NCBI RefSeq assembly: GCF_014646875.1
Contig: NZ_BMOC01000022.1
Location: 1-32,828, forward strand
DNA length: 32,828 nt
DNA from: Halobellus salinus
GTDB lineage: Archaea > Halobacteriota > Halobacteria > Halobacteriales > Haloferacaceae
Direction of reading: 5' to 3'
The notes under the pieces were generated by a model. The model made no database searches. It was not told the DNA's origin and saw nothing but the letters and a program-made list of their open reading frames with translations. The position numbers and the translations under genes are program-made. Position 1 is the stretch's first letter. Each line of letters opens with the position of its first letter. Of this stretch, positions 285 through 32,726 are shown one piece after another.

Positions 285-3263
285 TTGGACTTTCGAGATG
301 AACTTCTGAAGATTGCCTCCGAGCGAACCTCGGTTTCTTACTCAGGCGCATCGGAAATAAATACAGACGAGAAAGTTCAGGAATTCGTCGAAATTTTCTT
401 TAAGGATAATCTGAACCAACTGCTCACTCAGGATGCTCCGAAGCAGATTCGCCGGAGAAAACAGGCCGGAATTGAGGAGTTTTACGATTTATATGTCCAG
501 CTGCTGTTCGGGGAAGGATCAAAAAGTTATGACTATGACACTACACTAATTGACACAATCAGATCTCCTAGTTCTGCCTCAGACGCCGACGTTCGGAAGT
601 TCGCGATTAAATTGGTAAATCGTCTTCTGTTCGTCAAGTTCCTCGAAGATAACGAAGTGCTTCCTGAGAAGTTCTTGACCGAACGAGTTGAGAAGTATAG
701 GGAAGCCAGTGAGGTCGATCAGCTCACAGGTGGACTCTACAAGACTCAACTCCAGCCAATCTTCTTTTCTCTGTTCAACACAGAAAAAAACGACCGCATC
801 TCGAAGCACAAAGGTGGGTGGTTTGATAGTGTTGAGTACTTGAACGGCAGCTTGTTTGCTCCCTCTGAAGACGAGCGAAAGTACGACGTAGACGACGATA
901 TGCTAATTAACGTCGTCAGAGACCTCATCGAGGGCCACAAACTCGAGGAAGACAATGGGAGTCTCGACCCGTCTGTTCTCGGCCAAGTATTCGAGATGAC
1001 GATCAACCACATCAACAGTGGTCAAAGCCAGAAGGACGAAGGTGCCTACTACACTCCGAACGACGTAATTCAGCTGATAAATAAAAAAACGATTGATCCG
1101 AAGGTCCACGAAATTCTAGTGGATACTTACAGCAAGCAGATAGTAAAAAAATCTGGGATGGAGCCAGAGAACGCCAGAGAGTTTGTCTCTTCCAACGGTC
1201 TTGGGGAGATGCTTGGACAAATTGAGCAAGGAGAAGGCTACTTTGGTGACACGGATGCTTTGAAGGAGGCATACGAGCGTCTTGGAAGGCTGAGAGTGAT
1301 TGACCCTGCCTGCGGTTCCGGTCACTTTCTAACGGGTGTTATGGACGAAATTCACAGGGTACGAATGTCGTTACTTCGTGGCTGGAAAGGCGACAGCCTG
1401 GAAGATGCCGATATATATGATGCGAAGAAAGAGTTGGTATTAAACTCAATTTATGGCGTCGATATCAACCCGATCGCTGTCGAGATTGCGAAGCTGCGTG
1501 TGTGGCTGAAAATGGTCGAAGAGGGCTGGGAACCAGATTACGGCGAGCTCCCAAACATTGATATCAATATCGTTGCAGGAAACTCTCTGGTTGGTATTCC
1601 CGCGATCAGTGTAGGCCAGTCCCAACTACAGGACTTTGACTTAGATATATCCGAACTTCGACAAGTTCGAGAAGAATATAAGGAGGGAGAAATTACTCGC
1701 CGCGAACTGGATAACAAGATCGAGTCTCTACGGCCTGAATTAGATGAGAGCTTCCTTTCACAAATCAACCATTATTTCGAGGAAACAATCAGCAAGGAGA
1801 ACGAGTGGCTGAAACTAACTGACGGGTTAACAAATCTCTATCCATCTATCAAAAAAGTCACAATACGGAGGGTGGATGAAGAACAGCTTACTGACAAACA
1901 AAAAACTAATATAGAAAATGAAGGCTTCTACGTTGAACCGAGGTATGAGAAGAGTGCGAAGGTCGAGGAAGGAGATATTGACAATATAGACGATTTCAGC
2001 CAGTTCCTGAACAACGGCCTCAAGCTGGAACTGGAGCGGCAGCCTCTCCAAACAGATCTTAGACTGCTACAGAATCTCCGAAGTCATATAAACTCCCCAG
2101 ACCTCGCATATGGGCCCTTCCATTGGCCAGTTGAATTCCCCGAAGCCGCAACGGAAGATCAGAACGGGGACTACGACGTAGAGTTTGATTTGGTAGTCGG
2201 TAATCCGCCCTACGGTGATGTTCAAACCGAGGTGGAGAAGCAGTTCACTAAGGGCTACAAGACCGGGAACGTGAACGATGTTATTGCCCCATTCATAGAA
2301 AGACAAGTTAATATTCTGAAAGACGGCGGATACTTTGGTAATATTGCCGCCTTGCTTTTCGCCTATCAAGGAACTGCGTCGAACATTCGAGAGGTTATTC
2401 GCGACGGGCTGGCAAATCCAGAGGTAGCTTGCTTTAGTCGGAGGCCACAACAGGTGTTTGCAGGGTCTCAAGCCCGAACTGGTATCATCACTGCTAAGAA
2501 GGAGGATGTGGATGATAGTTCAATTTACACTAGCAAGTTCCTGAGGTTCAGTGAAAATAATCGACGTAAAGTATTCAATAGTATTGAGTACGAGTCAACC
2601 GACGGTCTAACCCTCGGAAATAGAATTGGCGGTGGAAAGGATAAGAGTCTTCCAAAAATCGGGAGTAGCACTCTTCGAAGTATCCTCGAGAAACTGAAAC
2701 AGAACTCTGATAATACGATAGATGATGTCTCAACTCGCTCTACTGAAACAAGCTATGCGGTTTGGAGGTCAAGACACCCTGCGTACTTCATCAATCCTTG
2801 CTTAGATAATTTGTATCCGGCAGGGGAGAAACCCCAGGACTTCGATCCATTCTACTTCAGTTCCGAGATAGAGCAGAAGGCGGCGTTCGTCGTCCTCCAC
2901 TCAAATCTTTTCTATACTTACTGGATGGTATACGAGAACGAGAGAGACCTGAATTGGAAATCTATTGACCCGTTCCCTCTACCAAAAAAAGACAGGCTGG
3001 AGGCGAAAGAAGATGAGATCGAAGAGGTTGCCAACGAGTTGTGGGATGAAATTCAGACACGGTTCGTCGGTGACGACAAAGAAGTAATTGAACAGGCTGG
3101 AGCTCTGAAACCAATTGCGGATGCCACGGACGAGCTTTTTGGCCCGATGTTCGACTTGACAGACGAGGAGATTGAATATGTACAAGAGTACGACAAAGAG
3201 TACCGGCTGAATGACGTAGACCAAACTCAACTGGTTTCTAAGTCGTTCAGTTGGCAAAACTGA
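285..3263 (+). CDS. Type IIG restriction-modification protein, methyltransferase and specificity part (Eco57I class)
   Basis: This 992-residue frame carries the two hallmarks of an N6-adenine methyltransferase: a SAM-binding motif I (DPACGSGHFLTG, near residue 340) and the catalytic NPPY motif (VVGNPPYGD, near residue 638). The wide gap between them is usual in the Eco57I/type IIG and PglX-like group. The last 300 residues should hold the target recognition region. Such enzymes methylate one DNA strand of their site and cut unmodified DNA when the fused N-terminal nuclease domain is present. Here that domain is upstream (63-284) and has no start codon of its own, so the TTG at 285 is only the first formal start. 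If the TAG at 60-62 is real, the product may be a solitary methyltransferase or be inactive. A BREX PglX is an alternative, but no other BREX genes are seen. The gene converges on the cluster at 3444-5128. Confidence 0.8.
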   Translation: MDFRDELLKIASERTSVSYSGASEINTDEKVQEFVEIFFKDNLNQLLTQDAPKQIRRRKQAGIEEFYDLYVQLLFGEGSKSYDYDTTLIDTIRSPSSASDADVRKFAIKLVNRLLFVKFLEDNEVLPEKFLTERVEKYREASEVDQLTGGLYKTQLQPIFFSLFNTEKNDRISKHKGGWFDSVEYLNGSLFAPSEDERKYDVDDDMLINVVRDLIEGHKLEEDNGSLDPSVLGQVFEMTINHINSGQSQKDEGAYYTPNDVIQLINKKTIDPKVHEILVDTYSKQIVKKSGMEPENAREFVSSNGLGEMLGQIEQGEGYFGDTDALKEAYERLGRLRVIDPACGSGHFLTGVMDEIHRVRMSLLRGWKGDSLEDADIYDAKKELVLNSIYGVDINPIAVEIAKLRVWLKMVEEGWEPDYGELPNIDINIVAGNSLVGIPAISVGQSQLQDFDLDISELRQVREEYKEGEITRRELDNKIESLRPELDESFLSQINHYFEETISKENEWLKLTDGLTNLYPSIKKVTIRRVDEEQLTDKQKTNIENEGFYVEPRYEKSAKVEEGDIDNIDDFSQFLNNGLKLELERQPLQTDLRLLQNLRSHINSPDLAYGPFHWPVEFPEAATEDQNGDYDVEFDLVVGNPPYGDVQTEVEKQFTKGYKTGNVNDVIAPFIERQVNILKDGGYFGNIAALLFAYQGTASNIREVIRDGLANPEVACFSRRPQQVFAGSQARTGIITAKKEDVDDSSIYTSKFLRFSENNRRKVFNSIEYESTDGLTLGNRIGGGKDKSLPKIGSSTLRSILEKLKQNSDNTIDDVSTRSTETSYAVWRSRHPAYFINPCLDNLYPAGEKPQDFDPFYFSSEIEQKAAFVVLHSNLFYTYWMVYENERDLNWKSIDPFPLPKKDRLEAKEDEIEEVANELWDEIQTRFVGDDKEVIEQAGALKPIADATDELFGPMFDLTDEEIEYVQEYDKEYRLNDVDQTQLVSKSFSWQN

Positions 3264-3946: not shown

Positions 3947-5128
3947 TCAAATCACGTCTTCAGTTGTCGTTGCGTTCCTGAAACTGGCTAAATCAGAGTA
4001 TACCCTACCTTGCGGAGCTTTTCGCTTGTAGGGAATAGGATCCTCAAGTTCATATAGCGTTCCTGGTTCAAAGATCACTACTTCGTCGCCAGGATCAAAC
4101 CCTGCTTCATCTCCTGTGTATGATTCTGCTTCGCGTGCTAAGGTGGCTTCCTCAGCCGGAACAATCTCCTTGATGCTAGCGATGTAGCGTATCTCCTGTG
4201 GCTCCCCTGCAACGTAGAACGCGGCGTACTCTGGATTCTGACCAACTCGAACGAAGCCCCACGCATTGTTCTCTTTGAGGAACTGAATCCCGGACTTACG
4301 AGTGGGGAATATAGCAGTTTGAGAGTCACCAGCACCAGATATTTCACTTCGTGGAATACTCCCTACTATTGCGTTCCTCCCTTGGCCAGGTACCCACTCA
4401 GCACTATCCTCCTTCTGGAGTTCTTGCTCGCCCGCCCACTCAAACTGGACTCCGTCCTCACTCTGCTGTTTGAGGGACGTTGATAATACATCGACAAACT
4501 GTTTTGCTCCATCTTGGACCGTCTGCGAGACAGAGTCCCCAATCTCGTCTGTGACGACTTGTGTGATACGATTAGCAATTGTAGCCTTCTTTTCACGAAG
4601 ATCAGTCGCTGCTCGTTGAGTCGTCTCGATATTTTCTGCAATTCGCTCCGCCTCGCCAGTCTTGATTGATTCTCGAGAGAGCGTATGTAGGAGATGAGCG
4701 TTGTTTTCGAGATTACCTAAAGAGATTTCGCCGAGTGAGACCTCGTCGGGGCGTTCTCTACCCTTCTTCCGCTTCAGTAATTCAAACTGAGTGCCATTAG
4801 TCAGCAGTCCCCAATCTACACCTACCTGCCGCATATAAATCTTCAGTTGATTCCGGTGCGAATCTGAAATAGCCGTATCGACTCCCTTGGCTTCCACAAA
4901 GACAACCGGAGCACCCTCAATCATCAGCGCGTAATCCACTTTCTTCGTGCCTACCCCCATCTGAACTGAGTACTCTAGTTCGACATCTTCAGAGAGCATA
5001 TTCCAACCCAAGATCTCCAATAGTGGCTCGATAAGTTTTCTCCGAGTGTTCTGCTCGTTCATCTGGGGAGAGGAGTCAATAAGCGACTGAGATCTCTCAA
5101 CATAATCGGCTAACTCATCTTTGTTCAT
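3947..5128 (-). CDS. Protein with type I restriction HsdR-N-like nuclease domain
   Basis: The N-terminal 140 residues match the stand-alone HsdR-N family: NTRRKLIEPLLEILGW near the start, then KVDYALMIEGAPVVFVEAKG, where the Asp and the E-x-K of a PD-(D/E)xK nuclease core are all present, followed by QLKIYMRQVGVDWGLLTNG. The middle (about 150-230) is helical and may be a coiled coil. The C-terminal 150 residues include a small region like those attached to such nucleases, but I cannot name it. No helicase motor is present, so it is not a complete HsdR. Such orphan proteins are frequent beside methyltransferases and on mobile elements. It starts the minus-strand cluster that ends at 3444 and faces the type IIG gene, so a shared defence role is plausible but inferred. 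Confidence 0.75.
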   Translation of the reverse strand: MNKDELADYVERSQSLIDSSPQMNEQNTRRKLIEPLLEILGWNMLSEDVELEYSVQMGVGTKKVDYALMIEGAPVVFVEAKGVDTAISDSHRNQLKIYMRQVGVDWGLLTNGTQFELLKRKKGRERPDEVSLGEISLGNLENNAHLLHTLSRESIKTGEAERIAENIETTQRAATDLREKKATIANRITQVVTDEIGDSVSQTVQDGAKQFVDVLSTSLKQQSEDGVQFEWAGEQELQKEDSAEWVPGQGRNAIVGSIPRSEISGAGDSQTAIFPTRKSGIQFLKENNAWGFVRVGQNPEYAAFYVAGEPQEIRYIASIKEIVPAEEATLAREAESYTGDEAGFDPGDEVVIFEPGTLYELEDPIPYKRKAPQGRVYSDLASFRNATTTEDVI

Positions 5129-21975: not shown

Positions 21976-22275
21976 CTATAACCCCTCAGAGTACTTTTTC
22001 ATAGCTTCGAGCGCTGCGTGCTCGGCGTCTTCGACATACTCCAACTCCATTCCCACAGCGATCTCTTCGACTCCATCATCTGGATCGACTAGGATCACAC
22101 GATGAGCATTGCAGAATCCAGGCTGATCAGAGTACGTTTTGTACGGCATACAGCGCACTTCAGCACCTGATTCTTTGTGCTCAAACTCAGCGATTAGTTT
22201 GAAATTGCCACTGAATTTGTACTGAGAGACAGTCCATCCGTCTGGAATCTCGATGTCCGGCTCTTCCTCTCTCAT
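21976..22275 (-). CDS. Hypothetical protein, last gene of a four-gene operon
   Basis: From the ATG at 22275 the protein has 99 residues: MREEEPDIEIPDGWTVSQYK, then NFKLIAEFEHKESGAEVRC and AHRVILVDPDDGVEEIAVGM, ending with a helix (YVEDAEHAALEAMKKYSEGL). The start overlaps the stop of the preceding gene, so the two are translationally coupled and this start is preferred to 22290. The alternation of short strands suggests a small alpha/beta fold. No family is recognised. The context is viral or plasmid-like. Confidence 0.65.
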   Translation of the reverse strand: MREEEPDIEIPDGWTVSQYKFSGNFKLIAEFEHKESGAEVRCMPYKTYSDQPGFCNAHRVILVDPDDGVEEIAVGMELEYVEDAEHAALEAMKKYSEGL

Positions 22276-22823
22276 ACGTCCTTTCCCCACTTTTCGACTG
22301 CGTCAGCGAGTGATCCCTCGAACTGCCAGTCAGCAACCTCGAAAGCATCCTCAGTTGGTCCATCCCAACGAGGGAAACCACAGTGCTCGCTGATCTTGAT
22401 TTGCCAGTCACTCGGCTCATCAAACGGGCTTCTGTTCGGGAGTTCGACAATGTAGAGATACTCTTCATCTCCGTGGATCCCACACGATGGATCCTCAACG
22501 CCGTGACCCAGCAAGTATGATGGAGTCCGCTCAAGATCCTCCCAACTTTCGGGGGAGAGCACTCCTTCAACCGAGTCTGGTAGGTCACTGTAGAGTCCGT
22601 CTTGACAACGGAACGTCCTCTCTATGTACCGGAGTTTGTCGATTAAGATGAACTGAGCCGCTGCGTAACCTGAGTCACGATGAGTCCCAGTAGCGTGGAG
22701 TAGTTCTTGGAGATGCTCCAAGAGCGGGATGATCCCTTCAGGATACCCATCCGAGTGACGGTAGACCTGAGCCACACGGTCTGTCTTCTCGTCGGTGAAT
22801 CGAAGTTGACAACGTGTGCTCAT
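22272..22823 (-). CDS. Phage-type hypothetical protein
   Basis: The protein has 183 residues. It opens MSTRCQLRFTDEKTDRVAQV, then YRHSDGYPEGIIPLLEHLQE. The string Y-R-H-x-D-G-Y-P-E after a short strand is characteristic of a family of uncharacterised proteins found mostly in bacteriophages and haloarchaeal viruses. The middle holds RYIERTFRCQDGLYSDLPDS and the end is FEVADWQFEGSLADAVEKWG. No enzyme motif is visible. It overlaps both neighbours by a few bases. Its presence supports a viral contribution to the element. Confidence 0.68.
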   Translation of the reverse strand: MSTRCQLRFTDEKTDRVAQVYRHSDGYPEGIIPLLEHLQELLHATGTHRDSGYAAAQFILIDKLRYIERTFRCQDGLYSDLPDSVEGVLSPESWEDLERTPSYLLGHGVEDPSCGIHGDEEYLYIVELPNRSPFDEPSDWQIKISEHCGFPRWDGPTEDAFEVADWQFEGSLADAVEKWGKDV

Positions 22824-23047
22824 AGGCTGGAGTACTTGATAGGATCGAGGTCGGTGTTCCGTGAGATCGACTGGACTCGTTCGAGCTGGTACTCTCCAGT
22901 GGCTCGATCACTGCTCCCCCACGAACAGGCCGGACAGCCGTTACCCCGGAGAACGTCTTCTTTCTTGTCTCCATCCAACTCGTGGGTCAGGTAGTAGAAT
23001 TCCCATCTGCTGCCACACTGACCGCAGGTAACGTCATTCATCTCCAC
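22820..23047 (-). CDS. Small zinc-ribbon protein
   Basis: The protein has 75 residues from GTG at 23047 (73 from ATG at 23041). CGQCGSRWEFYYLTHEL and GCPACSWGSSDRATGEYQLE give two CxxC knuckles about 25 residues apart, a zinc ribbon. The remainder (RVQSISRNTDLDPIKYSSL) is polar. It overlaps the gene before it by 8 to 14 bases and the gene after it by 4, so the operon order is fixed. It probably binds nucleic acid or a protein partner. Function is unknown. Confidence 0.68.
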   Translation of the reverse strand: MEMNDVTCGQCGSRWEFYYLTHELDGDKKEDVLRGNGCPACSWGSSDRATGEYQLERVQSISRNTDLDPIKYSSL

Positions 23048-23543
23048 TACCTCCAGTCGGGGCGTGAGTTGGCCAGACGACAGAAATTCCCATACTCGCC
23101 ATCGGCCCTTCTTGTTCCTCGACTTCTTGCCACTGCTCTACGGTTTCGAGTAACTGCTCTGCCTTCTCCGGGTTACCTTGCTCTATAGAAACCCAGTGCC
23201 CTCGGGCTGATTCGATGAGAGAATCAAGATCTCGGTTGAACACCGCAGCCCCTCTCTCACAGTAGGCAGCAGAGCCGTCTTGCCTGAAGTCCTTGACGTG
23301 CTTTGCTGCGTGGGCCGGACTTGCGTAGCCAATACTGTCGTCGACGATAGCAGCGATGAGTTCCTTATCGCTCATCTCCTCCGCCGAGTGGGTGTTCGTC
23401 TCCTTCGCGCAGTCTCGACAGAGACGCTCATATTCGTCCGGTACTCGATACTGTTCACAGTACTCGACTCCGACAGCCGACCAGGAACCACAGCGGTCAC
23501 AAGATCGGCTGGAGAGACTCTCGTCTGCTGAGTTTTCTGTCAT
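23034..23543 (-). CDS. Zinc-binding hypothetical protein, first gene of the four-gene operon
   Basis: The protein has 169 residues. An N-terminal four-cysteine site (SCDRCGSWSAVG, YCEQYRVPDEY and LCRDCAKE) forms a zinc finger over residues 15-47. A helical part follows (MSDKELIAAIVDDSIGYASP, AAKHVKDFRQDG) and then a helix-rich region (PEKAEQLLETVEQWQEVEEQ). No family is recognised. GGGAG lies about 8 bases upstream of the ATG and could act as a ribosome-binding site, and an inverted repeat sits at 23562-23594, where an operator would be expected. Confidence 0.65.
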   Translation of the reverse strand: MTENSADESLSSRSCDRCGSWSAVGVEYCEQYRVPDEYERLCRDCAKETNTHSAEEMSDKELIAAIVDDSIGYASPAHAAKHVKDFRQDGSAAYCERGAAVFNRDLDSLIESARGHWVSIEQGNPEKAEQLLETVEQWQEVEEQEGPMASMGISVVWPTHAPTGGSGDE

Positions 23544-23665: not shown

Positions 23666-24436
23666 TCAAACGTGTTTCTTTGGCATTAGATCCTGGAAAT
23701 CTTGAGAATCTAACCACTCACAGAGCTTGACTAATTGTGCTGTCGCTTCCTCAAACATTTGCTCTCCTTTTTCGGCTGTTGCATCAGTCTGGTCTCCAAG
23801 GACTCCGTTATCAGTATTATCGGCAGCATCGTAGAATGTTCGTGCTCCAAATTTTGTTGTTTCTGCTTCATCAATACTTTTCAGCCCCCCATCTCGGGCA
23901 TCTTCAAGACGGTCTTCGCGAACCAGTTCTGGCCTTAGATGTTGAATCATCGCTGTTTCTTTTGGACCACCGTGAGGGCCATTCTGGTCGAATAAGTCAT
24001 CGACAAGATCTGGGATACTATCATTCCACATCCACTCAATCGCATATAGCACCTCTTCATCACGAAGATGCCGACCCACCTCTCGCAGATGTTCAACATT
24101 CCCTCCGTGGGCATTCACGTAGATCACTCGATCAATTCCGTGATAGGCAAGGTTCCGAGTAAAGGATTCAACATAGTTCCTGAATGTAGGTGCATCAACC
24201 CACATTGTTCCGTGAAACTGCCTATGATGAGGGCTTACTCCGATGTTGATAGTAGGAGTACAGAGATAGCCAGTTCTTTCAGCTGCTTCTCGTGCGTAGG
24301 CCTCTGCTATAATATGATCTGTTGCCAATGGAAGATGAGGTCCGTGTTGCTCGGTTGAGCCCAATGGAACAAGGGCTATTGATTCATCCTCAAGGTAATC
24401 CCCAAGTTCCGGCCAGGTTTCATCAGCAATATACAT
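23666..24436 (-). CDS. Complete creatininase-family amidohydrolase carried by the element
   Basis: The protein has 256 residues, the normal length of the family. Metal-binding motifs are intact: PLGSTEQHGPHLPLATDH (Glu29, His31, Asp40), NAHGGN (His110) and the second-half HGGPKETA. The family includes creatininase, mycofactocin MftE and the archaeal ArfB deformylase of riboflavin and F420 synthesis; the last is a plausible role here but cannot be settled by reading. The N-terminal 135 residues are about 80% identical by eye to the fragment at 26676-27086, but the DNA is far more A+T rich. It lies 49 bases after the HNH gene and shows no promoter of its own, so it is probably expressed with the integrase. 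It looks like a replacement for the gene split by the insertion. Confidence 0.9.
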   Translation of the reverse strand: MYIADETWPELGDYLEDESIALVPLGSTEQHGPHLPLATDHIIAEAYAREAAERTGYLCTPTINIGVSPHHRQFHGTMWVDAPTFRNYVESFTRNLAYHGIDRVIYVNAHGGNVEHLREVGRHLRDEEVLYAIEWMWNDSIPDLVDDLFDQNGPHGGPKETAMIQHLRPELVREDRLEDARDGGLKSIDEAETTKFGARTFYDAADNTDNGVLGDQTDATAEKGEQMFEEATAQLVKLCEWLDSQDFQDLMPKKHV

Positions 24437-24485
24437 ATTATGGATTGATGAATGGCGCTCTCTTCAATCTATGGAAGCCCGTATT

Positions 24486-24701
24486 TCAATCGATCAGTCC
24501 GCGCTGTTTTGCCTCTTTCCTTGTTAACTCGGGCTTTAGTTCAGGATATTGATCCGTCAGGTGGATCTTCGGATGACAAGACTGACACACTGGTACACGG
24601 ATATTCTGCTTATATGAAACGTGATGTGCTACTAAATTTGGCTTGACTTCACCACAGGCTGAACACCTGTGCCTTGGGTCGTTTACTCTTTCACCGCACA
24701 T
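24486..24701 (-). CDS. Small HNH-type zinc protein, possible endonuclease
   Basis: The protein has 71 residues. Two zinc knuckles (CSACG at 13-17 and CQSCH at 39-43) flank LVAHHVSYKQNIRVPV, and KIHLTDQYPEL follows. The HH pair in the first strand and the final His are the layout of HNH nucleases (short H-N-H with zinc knuckles). It is smaller than most and could be a stand-alone nicking or DNA-binding unit. It starts 5 bases after the integrase gene ends, which is unusual and suggests a role in recombination or in defence of the element. Nuclease activity is inferred. Confidence 0.75.
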   Translation of the reverse strand: MCGERVNDPRHRCSACGEVKPNLVAHHVSYKQNIRVPVCQSCHPKIHLTDQYPELKPELTRKEAKQRGLID

Positions 24702-24705
24702 TGGC

Positions 24706-25983
24706 TCATTCAGCAGTTCCTCCGGGGCCGTACTGCCGGTAGCGCTCTCGAAGGTCGGCAGTAATCAAGTCGAGATATTCTTTCGTAGTATCTAGACTAT
24801 CGTGACCCATAATGTCGGCTAGGGTCTTGATATCTATTCCATTTTTTAGAGATTGAACTGCAAATCCGTGTCTTAGAGTGTGGGCAGTGATTTTGTACCT
24901 ACTTTGTCCGTTTCCATCAGTATACATTTCTCGTTGGATTCCTGCGTTCTTCGCTGACTTCACAATGATCTGGTTGATCTGGTGAGGATTTAGGCGGCCA
25001 CTTCTCTCTGATACAAAGAGATGGTCTGAGGTTTCTGCGGAATTGTAACTACTTCTGTAACCGCCGTCAATCCATATACCAAGCAATGTATCCAAAGATG
25101 GCTGGTAGAAAACATCTCTACTCTTGCTGTTCTTTCCTCGAATCTTTATTTCTCGTTTGTCTCTGTCAATATTGTTCAACGTTACATCCGCGGCTTCTTT
25201 CCGGCGAAGTCCTGTCTGCCACAGAAATTCAATGAGAAGCTCATTTCTGAGCTTTGGACCCGGGCAGTTGTCTTTGATCGCTTCCTTCTCTTCTTTTGTT
25301 AGATAGATAGTGTCTTCCGCGAGTTTATCGCTCTGCCTCGTCGGATTCTGGTAGTCAACAATGTCTGCGTCGTCAAGATTGACATCCTTTACAGGGTTCT
25401 GCTCAATGGATTCTTGTTTTTCGTGTAAAAACGTGTATAGAGTTGAGACGGTTGCGAACTTGTCTTTAATTGTCGTATCGCCGTAGCCTTTCCGAGAGAG
25501 GTATACGGCATAGTCCTCCAATCTCAGCGGAGTGAATTCTTCAAGAGTATCCTCCCGCTGGTTTTCAAACCATTCTGTGAACTGGATTAACCCGAGTTCT
25601 CGGTTTTGAACCGTGCCATCAGCTTTTGTAGCGCGAATTCGTTGGAGATATCGTGACGCATCATTGAGGATGATGCAGTCGACAATATCTATCTCCTCAC
25701 ACGGATTTTGGTCTACCCGGTCTTCTTCGATCAGATACTCGAAATATTTTTCTAAGCTTCGGAATATCTCTGATCGGATCTTACCGTAGGATGCTGAGTT
25801 ATCTTGCTTGATCCATTTAATAAGTTCCCGTATCTGCTCCGGACGAAACTCCTCTACAGAAAGCCCCTGACTTTCACACCAGGTAGAGAATAAGTCCAGC
25901 GAGCGTGTATGGCCCTGGATAGTCGATTCGGCATAATCACACTCTTGACACTCACGGATGAAGGCTTCTGCTGACCTAAGCAT
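24706..25983 (-). CDS. Tyrosine recombinase (integrase) of the element
   Basis: The protein has 425 residues. The catalytic domain is complete: Arg260 in TGLRRKEA, His368 and Arg371 in HTLRHGFA, His394 in MGHDSLDTT and the nucleophile Tyr403 in KEYLDL. The N-terminal 210 residues appear to contain two successive SAM-like core-binding domains (about 1-100 and 108-205), each with the pattern of helices seen once in XerC/XerD; this duplication is less common. The enzyme should carry out site-specific insertion and excision of the element, most likely at the site 26662-26699, less than 1 kb away. It begins 5 bases after the gene at 25989 and shares its promoter. Confidence 0.9.
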   Translation of the reverse strand: MLRSAEAFIRECQECDYAESTIQGHTRSLDLFSTWCESQGLSVEEFRPEQIRELIKWIKQDNSASYGKIRSEIFRSLEKYFEYLIEEDRVDQNPCEEIDIVDCIILNDASRYLQRIRATKADGTVQNRELGLIQFTEWFENQREDTLEEFTPLRLEDYAVYLSRKGYGDTTIKDKFATVSTLYTFLHEKQESIEQNPVKDVNLDDADIVDYQNPTRQSDKLAEDTIYLTKEEKEAIKDNCPGPKLRNELLIEFLWQTGLRRKEAADVTLNNIDRDKREIKIRGKNSKSRDVFYQPSLDTLLGIWIDGGYRSSYNSAETSDHLFVSERSGRLNPHQINQIIVKSAKNAGIQREMYTDGNGQSRYKITAHTLRHGFAVQSLKNGIDIKTLADIMGHDSLDTTKEYLDLITADLRERYRQYGPGGTAE

Positions 25984-25988
25984 AGGAA

Positions 25989-26621
25989 TCAGTTGTTTTT
26001 GTAGTACTGCGTCGTTCCTGCTTCCGACTCAGTTGAACTTACAGAGTGGGTAGTACTCTGTAATCTTTTGACAGCTAATTGTACGGCTTCTTCATCTGCA
26101 TCAAGCATCGCAGCAATATTAGCTATCGAGCCGGTACAAGCAAGATTTTCAGATGGATCGTGACTTTGCGACGCAGAAGCAGTTTCTTGACTATCATCTC
26201 CCATTGCTTCTATCATATATTCACCGCTAGACTGAGGTCCACTGACTGAAGATGTATCCTCGTTCTGCGCTATGGCGCTTTGGATCTCTGCAATGGAATT
26301 CGGGAGAATACGGTAAATTTCCGTAGCTAACGTTGTGAGATCCTCATCACCGTAACGTTCTGATTCGATGGCAGATAGCCGCCGGTCTACAGACTGGAGT
26401 TTATGAGATATTTGTTCTAGCTTGTTGGTCACTTCAGGTGCTGGTTCCTTTGATTTGGGATCTCCTTTTTCAAGCGGATTCTCGCGAGCAATTTCTCTCT
26501 CAGTGGCGATGCGTACCAACTGTGACAGCGTAGGCTGATTGCTTTCCTCAACATAATCTTTCCATCTTTTCTTCTTTTCTTTGGATATTCTTACTGTTAA
26601 CATCTCATATTCGTCCGACAT
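25989..26621 (-). CDS. Putative ribbon-helix-helix regulator or recombination accessory protein
   Basis: The protein has 210 residues. The first 50 (MLTVRISKEKKKRWKDYVEE followed by TLSQLVRIATEREI) look like a ribbon-helix-helix DNA-binding domain. Residues 65-90 are a short coiled coil (EVTNKLEQISHKLQSVDRRL). A Ser-rich linker follows, and near the end NIAAMLDADEEAVQLAVKRL is a helical unit like a small HTH. It is the first gene of the integration operon and lies nearest to the attachment site, as do directionality factors or integrase repressors in other elements. Its exact job is inferred from position. Confidence 0.65.
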   Translation of the reverse strand: MSDEYEMLTVRISKEKKKRWKDYVEESNQPTLSQLVRIATEREIARENPLEKGDPKSKEPAPEVTNKLEQISHKLQSVDRRLSAIESERYGDEDLTTLATEIYRILPNSIAEIQSAIAQNEDTSSVSGPQSSGEYMIEAMGDDSQETASASQSHDPSENLACTGSIANIAAMLDADEEAVQLAVKRLQSTTHSVSSTESEAGTTQYYKNN

Positions 26622-26647
26622 TGCAGAAATGCGTTACACGGGAAAAC

Positions 26648-26659
26648 AATATAAAAATT
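26648..26659 (-). promoter_or_regulatory. Probable TATA box of the integration operon
   Basis: On the minus strand AATTTTTATATT lies about 27 to 38 bases before the ATG at 26621. It sits between the start of the operon and the putative core site, so binding of the integrase could affect transcription. Confidence 0.5.
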
Positions 26660-26661
26660 TT

Positions 26662-26699
26662 CTCTACAAAATGAGTTATGTCCACTCGACCGCGTAGAG
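26662..26699. other. Putative attachment core site (attR) at the element-chromosome junction
   Basis: The sequence is symmetrical in two steps: CTCTAC, five bases, GAGT, the seven-base centre TATGTCC, ACTC, six bases, GTAGAG. Paired arms around a 6- to 8-base centre are typical of tyrosine recombinase core sites. The right half is creatininase coding DNA, the left half is element DNA; homology to the family ends near 26681. Confidence 0.5.
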
Positions 26700-27086
26700 T
26701 GTCCCGTCGTCGCGGAGGCGGCGCCCGACCTCGCGGAGGTGCTCGACGTTGCCGCCGTGGGCGTTGACGAAGACCACCCGGTCGATCCCGTGATACGTGA
26801 GGTTCCGGGTCAGCGACTCGATGTAGTCGCGGAAGACCGGTGCGTCAACCCACATCGTGCCGTGGAACTGCCGGTGGTGCGGGCTGACGCCGACGTTCAC
26901 CGTGGGGGTACAGAGGAATCCACCGCGGTCTGCTGCCTCGCGGGCCAGTCCCTCGGCGATGAGGTGGTCGGTGGCCAGCGGGAGGTGCGGGCCGTGCTGT
27001 TCGGTTGAGCCGAGCGGGACGACCGCGACCGACTCCTCGGCGACGTAGTCTCCGAGCTCGGGCCACGTCCGATCTGCAGCGTACAT
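26676..27086 (-). pseudogene. Creatininase-family gene truncated by the element
   Basis: From the ATG at 27086 the frame encodes MYAADRTWPELGDYVAEESV and remains typical of the family through NAHGGN to LYAVEW. It then ends within one codon at the junction with element DNA, giving 136 residues in place of about 250. The metal ligands of the first half are present, but the second half with its HGGPKET segment is lost, so the product should be inactive. The DNA is as G+C rich as the rest of the right-hand chromosome, in contrast to the complete copy at 23666-24436. The missing 3' part should be on the far left side of the element, outside the window. Confidence 0.88.
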
Positions 27087-27272: not shown

Positions 27273-28409
<1,137 letters not shown>

Positions 28410-28520
28410 ACTGAATCACCGGAGGGGACAACTCACAGCGGATGTGGTACGACGATCGACATAAATCCCCGAGATCCGACGCGGCATGGGTTTTTACCCA
28501 CCGGTGGTGTGGCTGACGGT

Positions 28521-29498
28521 ATGGAGTACACCACACTGGGCGACACCGGCACCACGGTCTCGAAGATCTGCCTCGGGTGTATGAGCTTCGGCGACAACGA
28601 CTGGCGGGAGTGGGTGCTCGACGAGGCGGCCGGCAGGGAACTGGTCGACCGCGCGATCGAACTCGGCGTGAACTTCTTCGACACCGCAAACATGTACTCC
28701 CGCGGCGGGTCCGAGCGGGTGCTCGGTGACGCGCTCTCCGATCGCGACCGCGACGAGTTCGTGGTCGCGTCGAAGGTGTACTTCCAGATGGACGACGACG
28801 ACCCCAACTCCGGAGGGCTGTCGCGGAAGGCGATCGAGCAGGAACTCGACAACTCCCTGGATCGGCTCGGAATGGATTCGCTTGATCTCCTCCAGATCCA
28901 CCGGTGGGACGACGACACCCCGATCGAGCGGACGATGCGGGCGCTCGACGCCGCCGTCGACCGCGGGAAGACCAGATACCTCGGCGCGTCGTCCATGTGG
29001 GCCCACCAGTTCGCCGAGGCACAGCACGTCGCCGACCGCGAGGGGCTCACGCCCTTCTCCACGATGCAGAACCACTACAACCTGCTCTACCGGGAGGAGG
29101 AACGCGAGATGCTGCCGCTGTGCGACAAGCAGGGGGTAGGCGTCATCCCGTGGTCGCCGCTGGCGCGAGGTCGACTCGCGCGTCCACACGAGGACGCGGA
29201 AGCGACGACTCGCGGCGAGACCGACGACTACGCCTTCGAACACCCGTATCTGGAGAGTGGCGGCCGCGAGGTCAACGAACGCGTGCAGGAAATCGCCGCC
29301 GAGAGGGGCGTGAAGATGGCCCAGATCGGGTTGGCGTGGCTGTTCGAGTCCGACACCGTGGACGCCCCAATCGTGGGCACCACGAGCGTCGAACACCTCG
29401 AGGACGCCGTGGAGGCGCTCTCGATTGAGCTCACGGGTTCGGAGATGGAGTACCTGGAGGCGCCGTACCAGCCGGTGCGGGTGTCGGGTCACGAGTAG
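28521..29498 (+). CDS. Aldo/keto reductase
   Basis: Started at the ATG at 28521 the protein has 325 residues; a GTG four codons upstream is possible. The AKR barrel is recognisable: MEYTTLGDTGTTVSKICLGC at the start, NFFDTANMYSRGGSERVLG with the catalytic Asp and Tyr, FVVASKVYF with the catalytic Lys, LQIHRWDDD with the His, and the C-terminal PIVGTTSVEHLEDAVEAL for the cofactor. It should reduce an aldehyde or ketone with NADPH. The substrate is not known; this group (close to YajO/Tas-type reductases) is broad. A TTTTTAC box about 30 bases upstream could be the promoter. Its stop codon lies inside a 32-base tandem repeat. Confidence 0.9.
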   Translation: MEYTTLGDTGTTVSKICLGCMSFGDNDWREWVLDEAAGRELVDRAIELGVNFFDTANMYSRGGSERVLGDALSDRDRDEFVVASKVYFQMDDDDPNSGGLSRKAIEQELDNSLDRLGMDSLDLLQIHRWDDDTPIERTMRALDAAVDRGKTRYLGASSMWAHQFAEAQHVADREGLTPFSTMQNHYNLLYREEEREMLPLCDKQGVGVIPWSPLARGRLARPHEDAEATTRGETDDYAFEHPYLESGGREVNERVQEIAAERGVKMAQIGLAWLFESDTVDAPIVGTTSVEHLEDAVEALSIELTGSEMEYLEAPYQPVRVSGHE

Positions 29499-29566
29499 CG
29501 CCGCCCTGACGTGGGTGCGGTCCCGAGTAGCGCCGCCCTGACGTGGGTGCGGTCCCGAGTAGCGCT
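29492..29566 (+). repeat. 32-base tandem repeat over the aldo/keto reductase stop codon
   Basis: Two full units beginning CGAGTAGCGCCGCCCTGACG are followed by a third partial unit (CGAGTAGCGC) with a period of exactly 32 bases (29492, 29524, 29556). The first unit contains the last codon and stop of the reductase. Confidence 0.85.
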
Positions 29567-29635
29567 GGTTGGCTGTGTTCAACCCCTACTTCAGGTGACA
29601 CGAGTGAACACACAAGTATCGAGCCCGTCGAACGT

Positions 29636-29995
29636 ATGAATATGGCATCAACGCTTGCCGACGAGGAATGTGTGGCCTGTACATCAGAGGACGAACCGCT
29701 CACAGAGGCGGAGTACGCCGAGTACCTGACTGAAATCGATACTGATGTCTGGGAAGTCATCGACGATCATCACCTCGACGGAGCGTATTCGCTCGAGGAC
29801 TTCCGCGATGCACTCGAGTTCACGTACGAGATCGGTGAGCTTGCCGAAGAGGAGTGGCACCACCCGGACATCCGGCTGGAATGGGGCGAGGTTCGAGTCG
29901 AGATGTGGACGCACAAGATCGACGGACTCCACAAGACCGACTTCGTCATGGCGGCGCGTATGGATCGGATACACGAGGAATACGCTCCGGAGTAG
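29636..29995 (+). CDS. Pterin-4a-carbinolamine dehydratase (4a-hydroxytetrahydrobiopterin dehydratase)
   Basis: Started at the ATG at 29636 (an ATG at 29642 is equally possible) the protein has 119 residues. It carries the family signature in order: [60 protein letters not shown] and IDGLHKTDF, with the paired His residues and the second conserved H-x-x-x-(L)-x-x-x-D at the active site. It dehydrates the 4a-carbinolamine of tetrahydropterin cofactors, and in archaea may also act with molybdopterin-related pathways. The longer frame from 29543 includes the tandem repeat and is not used. No pterin-dependent hydroxylase is next to it. Confidence 0.92.
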
Positions 29996-30095
29996 GAGGT
30001 GTCTGCGCCGTCTATGAGCTACGGCCGCCGGGATCAATCACCGAATGGGTTGTTGAACGAAGCCACCTGGTTCGGCCCCGGCCGTTGTCCCCGAC

Positions 30096-31298
30096 TCACT
30101 CCGCCGGCCGCACCACCGAGCGACCGCGTTCCTCGGAGCCGCCGGAGAGCCGCCACACGGCTCGCGCGGCCGCGAGTGCGATCGCGACCTCCGAGAGCCC
30201 GACGGCGAGAAACGCCGCGAGGTAGCCGGCGGTTGAGGTGGTGAGCCCGCCGAGCAAAAACCCCGCGAGGAAGCCCAGACTACCGAAGACGTTGAACCCG
30301 CCGAGCGCCGCGCCGCGGGTTTCCGGCGTCGCGACGTCGGTGACGAGCGCCATCGTCGCGGGCGCGACCAACGCCCCGAGCGCGCCGACCGCGACCATCG
30401 CCGCGACCGCGACCCACAGCACGGGCGCGACCCCGACGGCGACGATGCCGAGTCCGTAGCAGATCGACCCCGCAACCACCGGGATCGCCCGCCCGATTCG
30501 GTCCGACAGCATCCCCGCGGGGTACTGCAGAAGCGCGAACGGCAGAAAAAAGGCCGCGAGCGCCAGCCCCGCACCCGCGGCGTCCAGCCCGAACGTCGTC
30601 CGGAAGTAGAAGACGCCAACCAGAGCGAAAAACCCCGCCGTCATCCGGTCGATGAATCCGAACGCGTAAGGAACCGTGAGCGCGGGCTGTCGACGGAGTC
30701 CACCGAGTGCATCGCCGAGGCGGCGCGGGTCAGCATCGATTTCGGCCTCCGATACCGTCAGAAACAGCAGGCCGACGGCCGCAAGCGTCGCCGCCGCGGC
30801 GTACACTGGGTAGAAGGGGTCGGCGTCCGCCAGCCGACCACCCACCACCGACCCCAGCGCCGCGCCGAGTCCGATCGCGATCCCGGCGGCACCCATGTTC
30901 CGGCCGTTGCCGCCGGCGAGGTCGGCCAGGGCGGTGATCGACAGCGAGAACGCCCCGATGGTGGCGGCGCCCCCGACGACACGGACGACGAGGACGCCGG
31001 CGAATGGGGCACCGAAGGCAGGTGTGGCGGCGAGCACGAGGTAGCCGGCCGCGCCCCCGAACGCTCCCGCCGCCGCAAGCGGCATCCGCCGGCCGAGAGC
31101 GTCGCTCGCCGCACCCCACACGCTCGCGAACGCGACGAACGCAGCGAACTCCGCGACCAGGAACCACATGCCGGCGCGCACCGTCGCGCCACCGCCGAGC
31201 GCGACGACGATGTCCTCAACCCCGGGGTAGAGGAACACCTGCGAGACCAGCACGCCCCACACGCCGACAGCGAGTCGGAGCCGTGTCCCGCCAATCAC
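30096..31298 (-). CDS. Major facilitator superfamily transporter
   Basis: The protein has 400 residues from a GTG start. Twelve hydrophobic helices can be counted, nearly all rich in Ala, Gly and Val. GAASDALGRRMPLAAAG between helices 2 and 3 matches the MFS motif G-x-x-x-D-x-x-G-R-R, and a second half repeats it as AGMLSDRIGRAIPV. The protein should exchange a small solute against protons or act as a drug exporter; the substrate cannot be told. It is transcribed alone, between the dehydratase and the Tat lipoprotein, and is divergent from the latter. Base composition is that of the chromosome. Confidence 0.88.
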   Translation of the reverse strand: MIGGTRLRLAVGVWGVLVSQVFLYPGVEDIVVALGGGATVRAGMWFLVAEFAAFVAFASVWGAASDALGRRMPLAAAGAFGGAAGYLVLAATPAFGAPFAGVLVVRVVGGAATIGAFSLSITALADLAGGNGRNMGAAGIAIGLGAALGSVVGGRLADADPFYPVYAAAATLAAVGLLFLTVSEAEIDADPRRLGDALGGLRRQPALTVPYAFGFIDRMTAGFFALVGVFYFRTTFGLDAAGAGLALAAFFLPFALLQYPAGMLSDRIGRAIPVVAGSICYGLGIVAVGVAPVLWVAVAAMVAVGALGALVAPATMALVTDVATPETRGAALGGFNVFGSLGFLAGFLLGGLTTSTAGYLAAFLAVGLSEVAIALAAARAVWRLSGGSEERGRSVVRPAE

Positions 31299-31418
31299 AC
31301 CACGAAACTAGGCCTCGGGGGACATAGCCGCGTCGCTTCGGGCGGTGGGAGCCGGGGGCCGCACCAAGGCAGCCACGCGAACAGAACCCATTTCACCGTC
31401 TACGCGCTATCAGTCGGT

Positions 31419-32726
31419 ATGGACGATGGCGGAGCCGACGCCTCGCGCCGGGAGGTGCTGAAAGCCGCCGTTGCGGCCGGCGGTGTATCGGCGCTGTCGG
31501 CGTGTCTGGAGGCGACTGAGGACGACGATCCCGTGCCGACGGGCCCCGACGACCTCTCGGTGCTCACCGAACGGCAGCACGCCTGGAACGATCGCGTCCG
31601 GACCGACGACCACGGCAACACGCTCCTCCCGCGGCACCAGGTGCTGCTGTACCTCACGCTCCCCGGGTCGGGGCCGCCCGACGGTTCGGACCGCGAGTCG
31701 GTGGCGGCTGTCCTCCGGACGCTCGAGCGGGCGTACGAGCGGAGCCACGACGGACTCCTGTTTTCGATTGGGTACTCGCCGCGGTACTTCGGTCGGTACG
31801 ACGCGTCGCTGCCGGCGTCGATCGACCTCCCGGAGCCACGCCGGCTGTCGCCGTTCGAGTCGCCCACGTTCGACCGGCAGGACGCGATGATACACCTCGC
31901 GTCCGACCGCGCGGCGGTCGTACTCGCGGCTGAGGCGGCGCTCACCGGGGCGGAGGCGACAGTCAACGGCGTTTCGATGGAACAACCCCTCACCGACACC
32001 GTTGAGATCGCAGACCGCCGGACGGGGTTCGTCGGCGCGGGGATGCCCGCCGAGCGGCAGAACGGCCTGGCCGGGATCCCCTCGTCGAACCCTGTCCCCG
32101 AAGAGTCCCCGCTGTTCATGGGGTTCATCGCGGGGTTCCGGCAGAACCAGGCCACCGAAGACTACGTTACGCTCGCCGGCGGGCCCTTCTCGGGCGGGAC
32201 CACCAAACACGTCTCGAACCTCCGGATGCGGCTGGACGACTGGTACGACGAGCAGTCGTACGACCAGCGGGTCGCGGAGCTGTTCTCGCCGGCCCACGCC
32301 GACCGGGGGTTGGTCGAGGGCGTCGGGGAGAACCTCGGCGACGACAACGGGGTGACCCCGGAGATCGCCGATTCGATCCGCGACCACGCCCGCGAGTTCG
32401 CCCGCGTCGGTCACGCCCAGAAGGCCGCCCGCGCCAACCGCGACGACGAGGGGCGGGTCCGGACGCTCAGGCGACACTTCGAGTCGACCGACGACGACGA
32501 GGCGAGCCTCCACTTCCCGAGTCTTCAGCGGGAGATCACGACGTTCGAGGAGGTCCGGAAAGCCATGAACGGGACCGACCTCACCGACGAGCCCGCGATC
32601 CGACAGCGGGTGAACAACGGGATCCTCGAGTACATCTTCACCAAGCGCCGGGGGAACTTCCTGGTCCCACCGCGGTCGCTCCGCGCGCTCCCGACGCCCG
32701 ACGGTCGGGCCCCGGGCGTGGAGTGA
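31419..32726 (+). CDS. Tat-exported lipoprotein, possibly of the haloarchaeal DUF7405 (Dyp-peroxidase-like) family
   Basis: The protein has 435 residues. A twin-arginine signal (DASRREVLKAAVAAGGVSAL) ends in the lipobox SACLE, so it should be exported folded and anchored by a lipid. The mature part is very acidic. LPRHQVLLYLTLPGSGPP near the start, GFVGAGMPAERQNGLAGIPS in the middle and VTLAGGPFSGGTTKHVSNLR later resemble a group of haloarchaeal proteins distantly related to Dyp-type heme peroxidases. The GXXDG motif of true Dyp peroxidases is not visible, so enzymatic activity is uncertain. It stands divergent from the MFS gene and ends about 100 bases before the window edge. Confidence 0.62.
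   Translation: MDDGGADASRREVLKAAVAAGGVSALSACLEATEDDDPVPTGPDDLSVLTERQHAWNDRVRTDDHGNTLLPRHQVLLYLTLPGSGPPDGSDRESVAAVLRTLERAYERSHDGLLFSIGYSPRYFGRYDASLPASIDLPEPRRLSPFESPTFDRQDAMIHLASDRAAVVLAAEAALTGAEATVNGVSMEQPLTDTVEIADRRTGFVGAGMPAERQNGLAGIPSSNPVPEESPLFMGFIAGFRQNQATEDYVTLAGGPFSGGTTKHVSNLRMRLDDWYDEQSYDQRVAELFSPAHADRGLVEGVGENLGDDNGVTPEIADSIRDHAREFARVGHAQKAARANRDDEGRVRTLRRHFESTDDDEASLHFPSLQREITTFEEVRKAMNGTDLTDEPAIRQRVNNGILEYIFTKRRGNFLVPPRSLRALPTPDGRAPGVE

Follow-up and report, generated by a model that had tools for sequence, protein, structure and literature searches.

We analysed a stretch of DNA that comprises one whole contig (C22, 32,828 nucleotides; hereafter the window) of the Halobellus salinus draft genome (G000; 3.07 Mb in 54 contigs), in which an integrated element adjoins a truncated gene of the creatininase family (PF02633). 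The GC content of the window was mostly 0.42–0.55 up to about 26.67 kb and 0.63–0.72 beyond, and positions 1–26675 were assigned to the element according to the GC profile, the gene families and a corresponding region on contig C5. The creatininase-family gene at the border (26676–27086, minus strand; PF02633, E 1e-47) comprises codons 1–136 of the host gene and ends in LYAVEWT followed by a stop codon, where GC drops from about 0.70 to about 0.45. The initial annotation had noted that the gene breaks where the A+T-rich DNA starts, and had suggested looking for its missing 3' part at the left end of the element and comparing relatives without the element; the split was confirmed, the 3' part exists, and such relatives possess one intact gene. 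A search of the whole genome returned four matches: a complete copy in the element, the two host fragments (the 5' part at the border and a 3' part located on C5), and a paralogue of 40% identity on contig C1.

The 3' part (residues 132–256; C5:155119–155496, outside the window) is adjoined by A+T-rich DNA that continues to the contig end. This second known part of the element (C5:155497–162124) encodes another tyrosine recombinase, Int2 (336 residues), besides a 97-residue open reading frame (ORF) and two larger ones. On the gene strand, the junction reads GCGGTCGAGTGGACATAACTC on C22 and GTCATATCGAGTGGATGTGGG on C5, and the common part is the 9-bp core TCGAGTGGA (26681–26689, minus strand). 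The core had been expected to lie between two arms, CTCTAC and GCGGTC; the real core adjoins these arms and is not between them, and we rejected CTCTAC as part of the site because it is not conserved at the host site of the second genome described below. When fused at the core, the two host halves gave a single open frame with no stops. The joined gene was sister to that of G092, a member of the same genus (support 100/98), and deviated at none of 104 conserved sites, where conserved means unchanged in 97% or more of 95 native genes. In Halobellus relatives the gene is uninterrupted and has, on its two sides, the neighbours that flank the H. salinus halves, with bactofilin-like, AKR, MFS and peroxidase-like genes on one side and a HalX regulator, a photolyase and a CSP gene on the other. 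In the window, the host flank (27273–32726) comprises bactofilin-like, AKR, pterin dehydratase-like, MFS and peroxidase-like genes, four of which stand upstream of the intact gene in Halobellus.

The complete copy carried by the element (256 residues; 23666–24436, minus strand; PF02633, E 1e-73) scored 247.7 bits against a gathering score of 31.3 and covered profile positions 2–237 of 238. It shares 79% identity with the truncated host gene over residues 1–136 and has a GC content of 0.46, which agrees with the earlier description of a full-length relative that has the composition of the element and belongs to the integrase operon. In particular, four genes lie on one strand, separated in transcription order by gaps of 5, 4 and 49 bp: a 210-residue protein with a ribbon-helix-helix (RHH)-like N-terminus (25989–26621, minus strand), the tyrosine recombinase Int (425 residues; 24706–25983, minus strand; PF00589, E 6e-30), a 71-residue HNH-like or zinc-binding protein (24486–24701, minus strand; weak HNH PHROG matches) and the copy itself. 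This operon starts 54 bp behind the truncated gene, on the same strand. The alignment of Int showed that the catalytic R, K, HxxR, H and Y are all conserved. Profile scans gave no family match for the 210-residue protein, and its RHH reading comes from the motif alone. The HNH-like protein probably belongs to the integration machinery, because in another genome (G165, L202 8928–10106) a related integrase carries a similar domain at its C-terminus as a fusion.

The initial annotation had considered the gene arfB-like, with a role in riboflavin and F420 synthesis, a view that the profile searches did not uphold. The element copy scored 31.8 bits with the model of ArfB, the riboflavin/F420 deformylase (NF033501), against a cut-off of 180, and no protein of its own genome exceeded the archaeal ArfB cut-off. 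Only 1 of 14 control genomes had a protein above this cut-off, so the model may miss haloarchaeal ArfB. The mycofactocin peptidase MftE (TIGR03964) was also rejected, with 145.7 bits against a cut-off of 172, and no named NCBIfam equivalog was over its cut-off for the element copy. The closest solved structures are creatinine amidohydrolases, and creatininase-family protein is the safest name for the product. The gene is widespread and not universal: 11 out of 96 good genomes of one family had no match at E ≤ 1e-60, and one genus (g74) lacks it entirely; the former suggestion that the replacement is essential for host survival, made for the case that the gene is arfB-like, is not supported.

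Relatives of the integrase were sought in a sample of 391 genomes of the class. Within the family of the window this search covered all available genomes, and the creatininase search covered the genus. The sole other close relative of Int (72% identity) was found in G193, a closed 2.91-Mb chromosome from another family. Its module is identical in make-up, with a gene cut at residue 136, the RHH, Int and HNH-like genes, and a complete copy with 89% identity to that of H. salinus; the 210-residue protein is 61% identical and also adjoins the integrase, and the HNH-like protein is 83% conserved. The 3' part of the G193 gene starts at residue 133 and adjoins a left arm homologous to that of H. salinus (80% for Int2 and 79% for the 97-residue ORF), while Int2 was found in these two genomes only, among the sampled genomes of the class. 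The core bases recur at the G193 junctions, and genomes congeneric with G193 (L041, L042) have an intact gene with the 5' neighbours on one side and the 3' neighbours on the other. Across 17 genomes of the Halobellus genus and 146 genomes of the G193 family, no second close copy was detected except in H. salinus and G193, and the combination of copy and fragment of this orthologue was present in only 1 of the 146. The initial annotation had stated that its reading would fall if there were no 3' remnant, or if both copies occurred as native genes in genomes lacking the integrase; the remnant exists, and in these 17 and 146 genomes the pair of copies is tied to those with the integrase.

The copies have been kept as proteins, while the host genes have had different fates. 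In the tree, the H. salinus element copy was sister to the G193 element copy, and the host gene grouped with that of G092, a placement of the two copies that had been sought from the beginning. The nonsynonymous divergence (dN) between the two element copies was 0.07 and their synonymous sites were near saturation; therefore the protein has been kept, and the element copy is under purifying selection according to these sequence comparisons. At the 104 conserved sites, the element copies showed 1, 1 and 2 deviations (1 for the H. salinus copy), including that of a third genome, G014, whereas the native genes averaged 0.47 and never exceeded 4. The host genes deviated at 0 sites in H. salinus, 4 in G014 (one of them a GTG start) and 10 in G193, and the end branch of the joined G193 host protein was 0.94 long, the median being 0.083. 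The simplest reading of these values is that the G193 host halves have decayed after constraint was lost, the element copy being the working gene, and that the insertion is recent in H. salinus and old in G193.

The third genome, G014, belongs to the window's own family, and its integrase is 41% identical to Int of H. salinus. The element is about 14 kb long and only distantly related to that of H. salinus, and its layout is different. The pair of RHH and Int genes (28% identity for the 210-residue protein) abuts the creatininase 3' part, with the junction ACTACGCCGAGTGGATGTGG, and the 5' part lies about 14 kb from the 3' part and ends TACGCGGTCGAGTGGATGG. The complete copy (69% identity to the H. 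salinus copy) is located about 60 bp past the 5' part in the opposite orientation, tail to tail with it, and thus at the element end opposite to the integrase. The core bases recur at these junctions too, shifted by one, so that one ten-base target is used by two element layouts, both of which bring in a full gene. The joined host gene forms one frame and is sister to the Halobaculum litoreum gene (support 100). The three element copies did not form a single clade in the best trees, and an approximately unbiased (AU) test gave p 0.29 for one clade; an independent origin of the G014 copy is favoured by these trees, not proven. Around other integrases about as distant from Int as that of G014, no part of this orthologue was found within 1.5 kb on each side. 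The search for further integrases with an adjacent creatininase gene and a host insertion, suggested at the outset, thus yielded the same module in G193 and another layout in G014, and the three genomes with such elements are a lower bound.

The copies had also been suspected of escaping integration through changes at the core. One core base, the same C, is indeed altered in all three element copies (TTGAG, TAGAA and TGGAG). Codons for Val and Ile without C are common in the three copies (19/26, 15/26 and 15/26), the chance of the shared change from codon usage alone is about 0.24 (p), and A+T-rich native genes also lack the core C. The change would fit immunity, and codon usage accounts for it just as well; that the recoded core protects the copies from re-insertion is possible, not statistically shown.

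Taken together, these comparisons make it highly likely that the element splits a conserved PF02633 gene at a fixed site and that its own full-length version takes over the function. The tyrosine recombinase would insert the element at a site of 9–10 bp within codons 133–136, with Int, perhaps together with Int2, recombining the element site with the host core. The element copy would then supply the lost activity, so that insertion would cost the host little and the element would hold the working gene. In H. salinus and G193 the copy may be expressed as part of the integrase operon. Since this operon follows the truncated gene closely (54 bp in H. salinus) and in the same direction, transcripts from the host promoter could perhaps also run into it; the operon may in addition have a promoter of its own, as suggested by a TATA-like, A+T-rich stretch ahead of the RHH gene. 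The G014 copy, convergent with the fragment, would need its own promoter. Three observations weigh against this explanation. No overlap was found between the element ends on C5 and C22, and the element is not closed in the assembly. In G193 a distance of 830 kb separates the two element ends (L162 and L168; about 1549 kb and 720 kb on C1), although relatives have the corresponding host flanks side by side; either the chromosome was rearranged later or the assembly is at fault. Finally, the gene is missing from some lineages, and the need for rescue is not proven.

Three other explanations were weighed against this rescue of a broken host gene. The copy could be a decoy or an addiction device, serving less to rescue the host than to make loss of the element harmful, as the working gene leaves with it. 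G193 agrees with this, since even precise excision would leave it with a damaged host gene and loss of the element would lose the function, whereas in H. salinus the joined host gene has no deviating conserved site and precise excision would restore it; dependence is therefore a later result and not the initial design, and we regard an addiction device as unlikely. Rather more doubtful is that the copy is unrelated cargo of the same family, kept for dosage or competition. Haloarchaeal plasmids do carry family members too and the function of the gene is unassigned, but all three elements at the site carry a full-length orthologue, in two places and orientations, the host halves of G193 have decayed, and a related element of Natrinema zhouii, which is not known to sit in this gene, has no copy. 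An ordinary host duplication next to an unrelated element, or a misassembly mimicking a split gene, is scarcely credible: the H. salinus genome is a draft with the halves on different contigs, but the copy stands amid conserved element genes, has an element-like composition and is nearest to the element copy of another family, the host genes on either side correspond to those around the intact gene of relatives, and the same codons are cut in three genomes.

Splitting a host gene and carrying a complete version of it looks like a repeatable strategy and not an accident, because two further archaeal genomes share the arrangement and the element in one of these is of a quite different kind. We propose more tentatively, with some doubt, that a natural insert-and-rescue evolved at least two times in haloarchaeal mobile elements at the same codons, with copies recoded at the core to escape being targets and hosts that become dependent once the halves decay. 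The consequences would be a mutual dependence of element and host and the movement of divergent gene versions between families, which can explain odd phylogenies. The elements also supply a new insertion site and integrases for haloarchaeal genetics.

Regarding the rest of the element, four small right-arm ORFs (169, 75, 183 and 104 residues; 21976–23543, minus strand) have homologues at the same place in G193 (169, 75 and 104 residues) and N. zhouii (75, 183 and 104 residues). The cargo includes, by family match, a type IIG-like methyltransferase (285–3263) and an HSDR_N nuclease (3947–5128). Defence-type cargo was present in all three elements in this gene: G193 carries an Hma-like trio of helicase, methylase and ATPase together with an IS66 transposase (L168 2004–14197), and G014 a type IIG enzyme and a D12-class DNA adenine methyltransferase (L201 15226–19994). 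No clear virus structural gene was found among the scanned proteins, which gave one PHROG of unknown function on C5, and there was no informative match in viral_contigs or the phage records. The N. zhouii element is located on a 508-kb plasmid (NZ_CP084882.1, about 447500–477650; L206) and comprises Int (52%), Int2 (69%), the small right-arm ORFs and a homologue of the 210-residue protein next to the integrase (37%); the chromosomal creatininase-family gene is intact, and the insertion target of this element was sought and not found. Two other candidates were discarded, namely a G095 gene cut at residue 127, where the break is a run of N, and a creatininase paralogue upstream of the G165 integrase, which belongs to the 39% group, is complete and is probably a mere neighbour. 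Haladaptatus pallidirubidus has two creatininase loci 550 kb apart on one chromosome (L071, L072) with equal identity to the query, possibly a duplicated segment.

Integrases are usually thought to favour tRNA genes and gene ends, since a short carried end mends the target. Site-specific islands in protein-coding genes are found likewise, such as SXT in prfC, SGI1 in trmE and the dusA islands. These islands insert at gene ends, and their target remains a functional or hybrid gene, whereas the haloarchaeal element cuts the middle of its target. It would thus represent an alternative way, in which a conserved protein gene is targeted in its middle and broken, and a whole replacement is brought. 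In the tRNA- and tmRNA-gene elements catalogued in Islander, the element sequence mends the split target (PMC4383910) through a displaced gene end; the haloarchaeal element brings the gene in full and does not mend the host gene, whose 5' part hits a stop codon just past the core. Nor does it resemble the SSV-type (suicidal) integrases, whose own gene contains the attachment site and is split upon integration, as Int and Int2 are intact and the core sits in the host gene. The thaumarchaeal integrated elements use protein-coding targets with short attachment sites in 3'-distal gene regions, and a full replacement copy is not described in the parts of that report available to us (PMC6563490). 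Whole-gene replacement by an archaeal element was not found in the open literature searched, subscription literature being outside the search; the initial annotation had called a carried whole replacement of a protein-coding target unusual, and we now see it in three genomes. Engineered cleave-and-rescue and toxin-antidote drives also break a resident gene and carry a working, resistant version (PMC7951863, PMC7046741), but they are nuclease-based and act in sexual eukaryotes, an analogy without homology.

The closest precedent appears to be the recA mobile element (RME) of Vibrio cholerae S24, which occupies a fixed site in the middle of recA, carries a complete, 23% divergent recA near one end and two site-specific recombinases, is A+T-richer than its host and restores the host gene upon precise excision (PMC4405046). 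Its authors proposed that the recA brought in by the element saves the host from the loss (PMC4405046). RME is bacterial, targets recA, has its copy and integrase at opposite ends and is described from one lineage; the haloarchaeal elements, known from sequence alone, target a creatininase-family gene in two layouts, one of them with the copy in the integrase operon. Several hallmarks of RME are found here as well, namely a fixed internal split, both host halves, an empty site in relatives, a complete, conserved and divergent copy and a recombinase, and both systems share the fixed mid-gene site, the A+T-rich DNA and the two recombinases.

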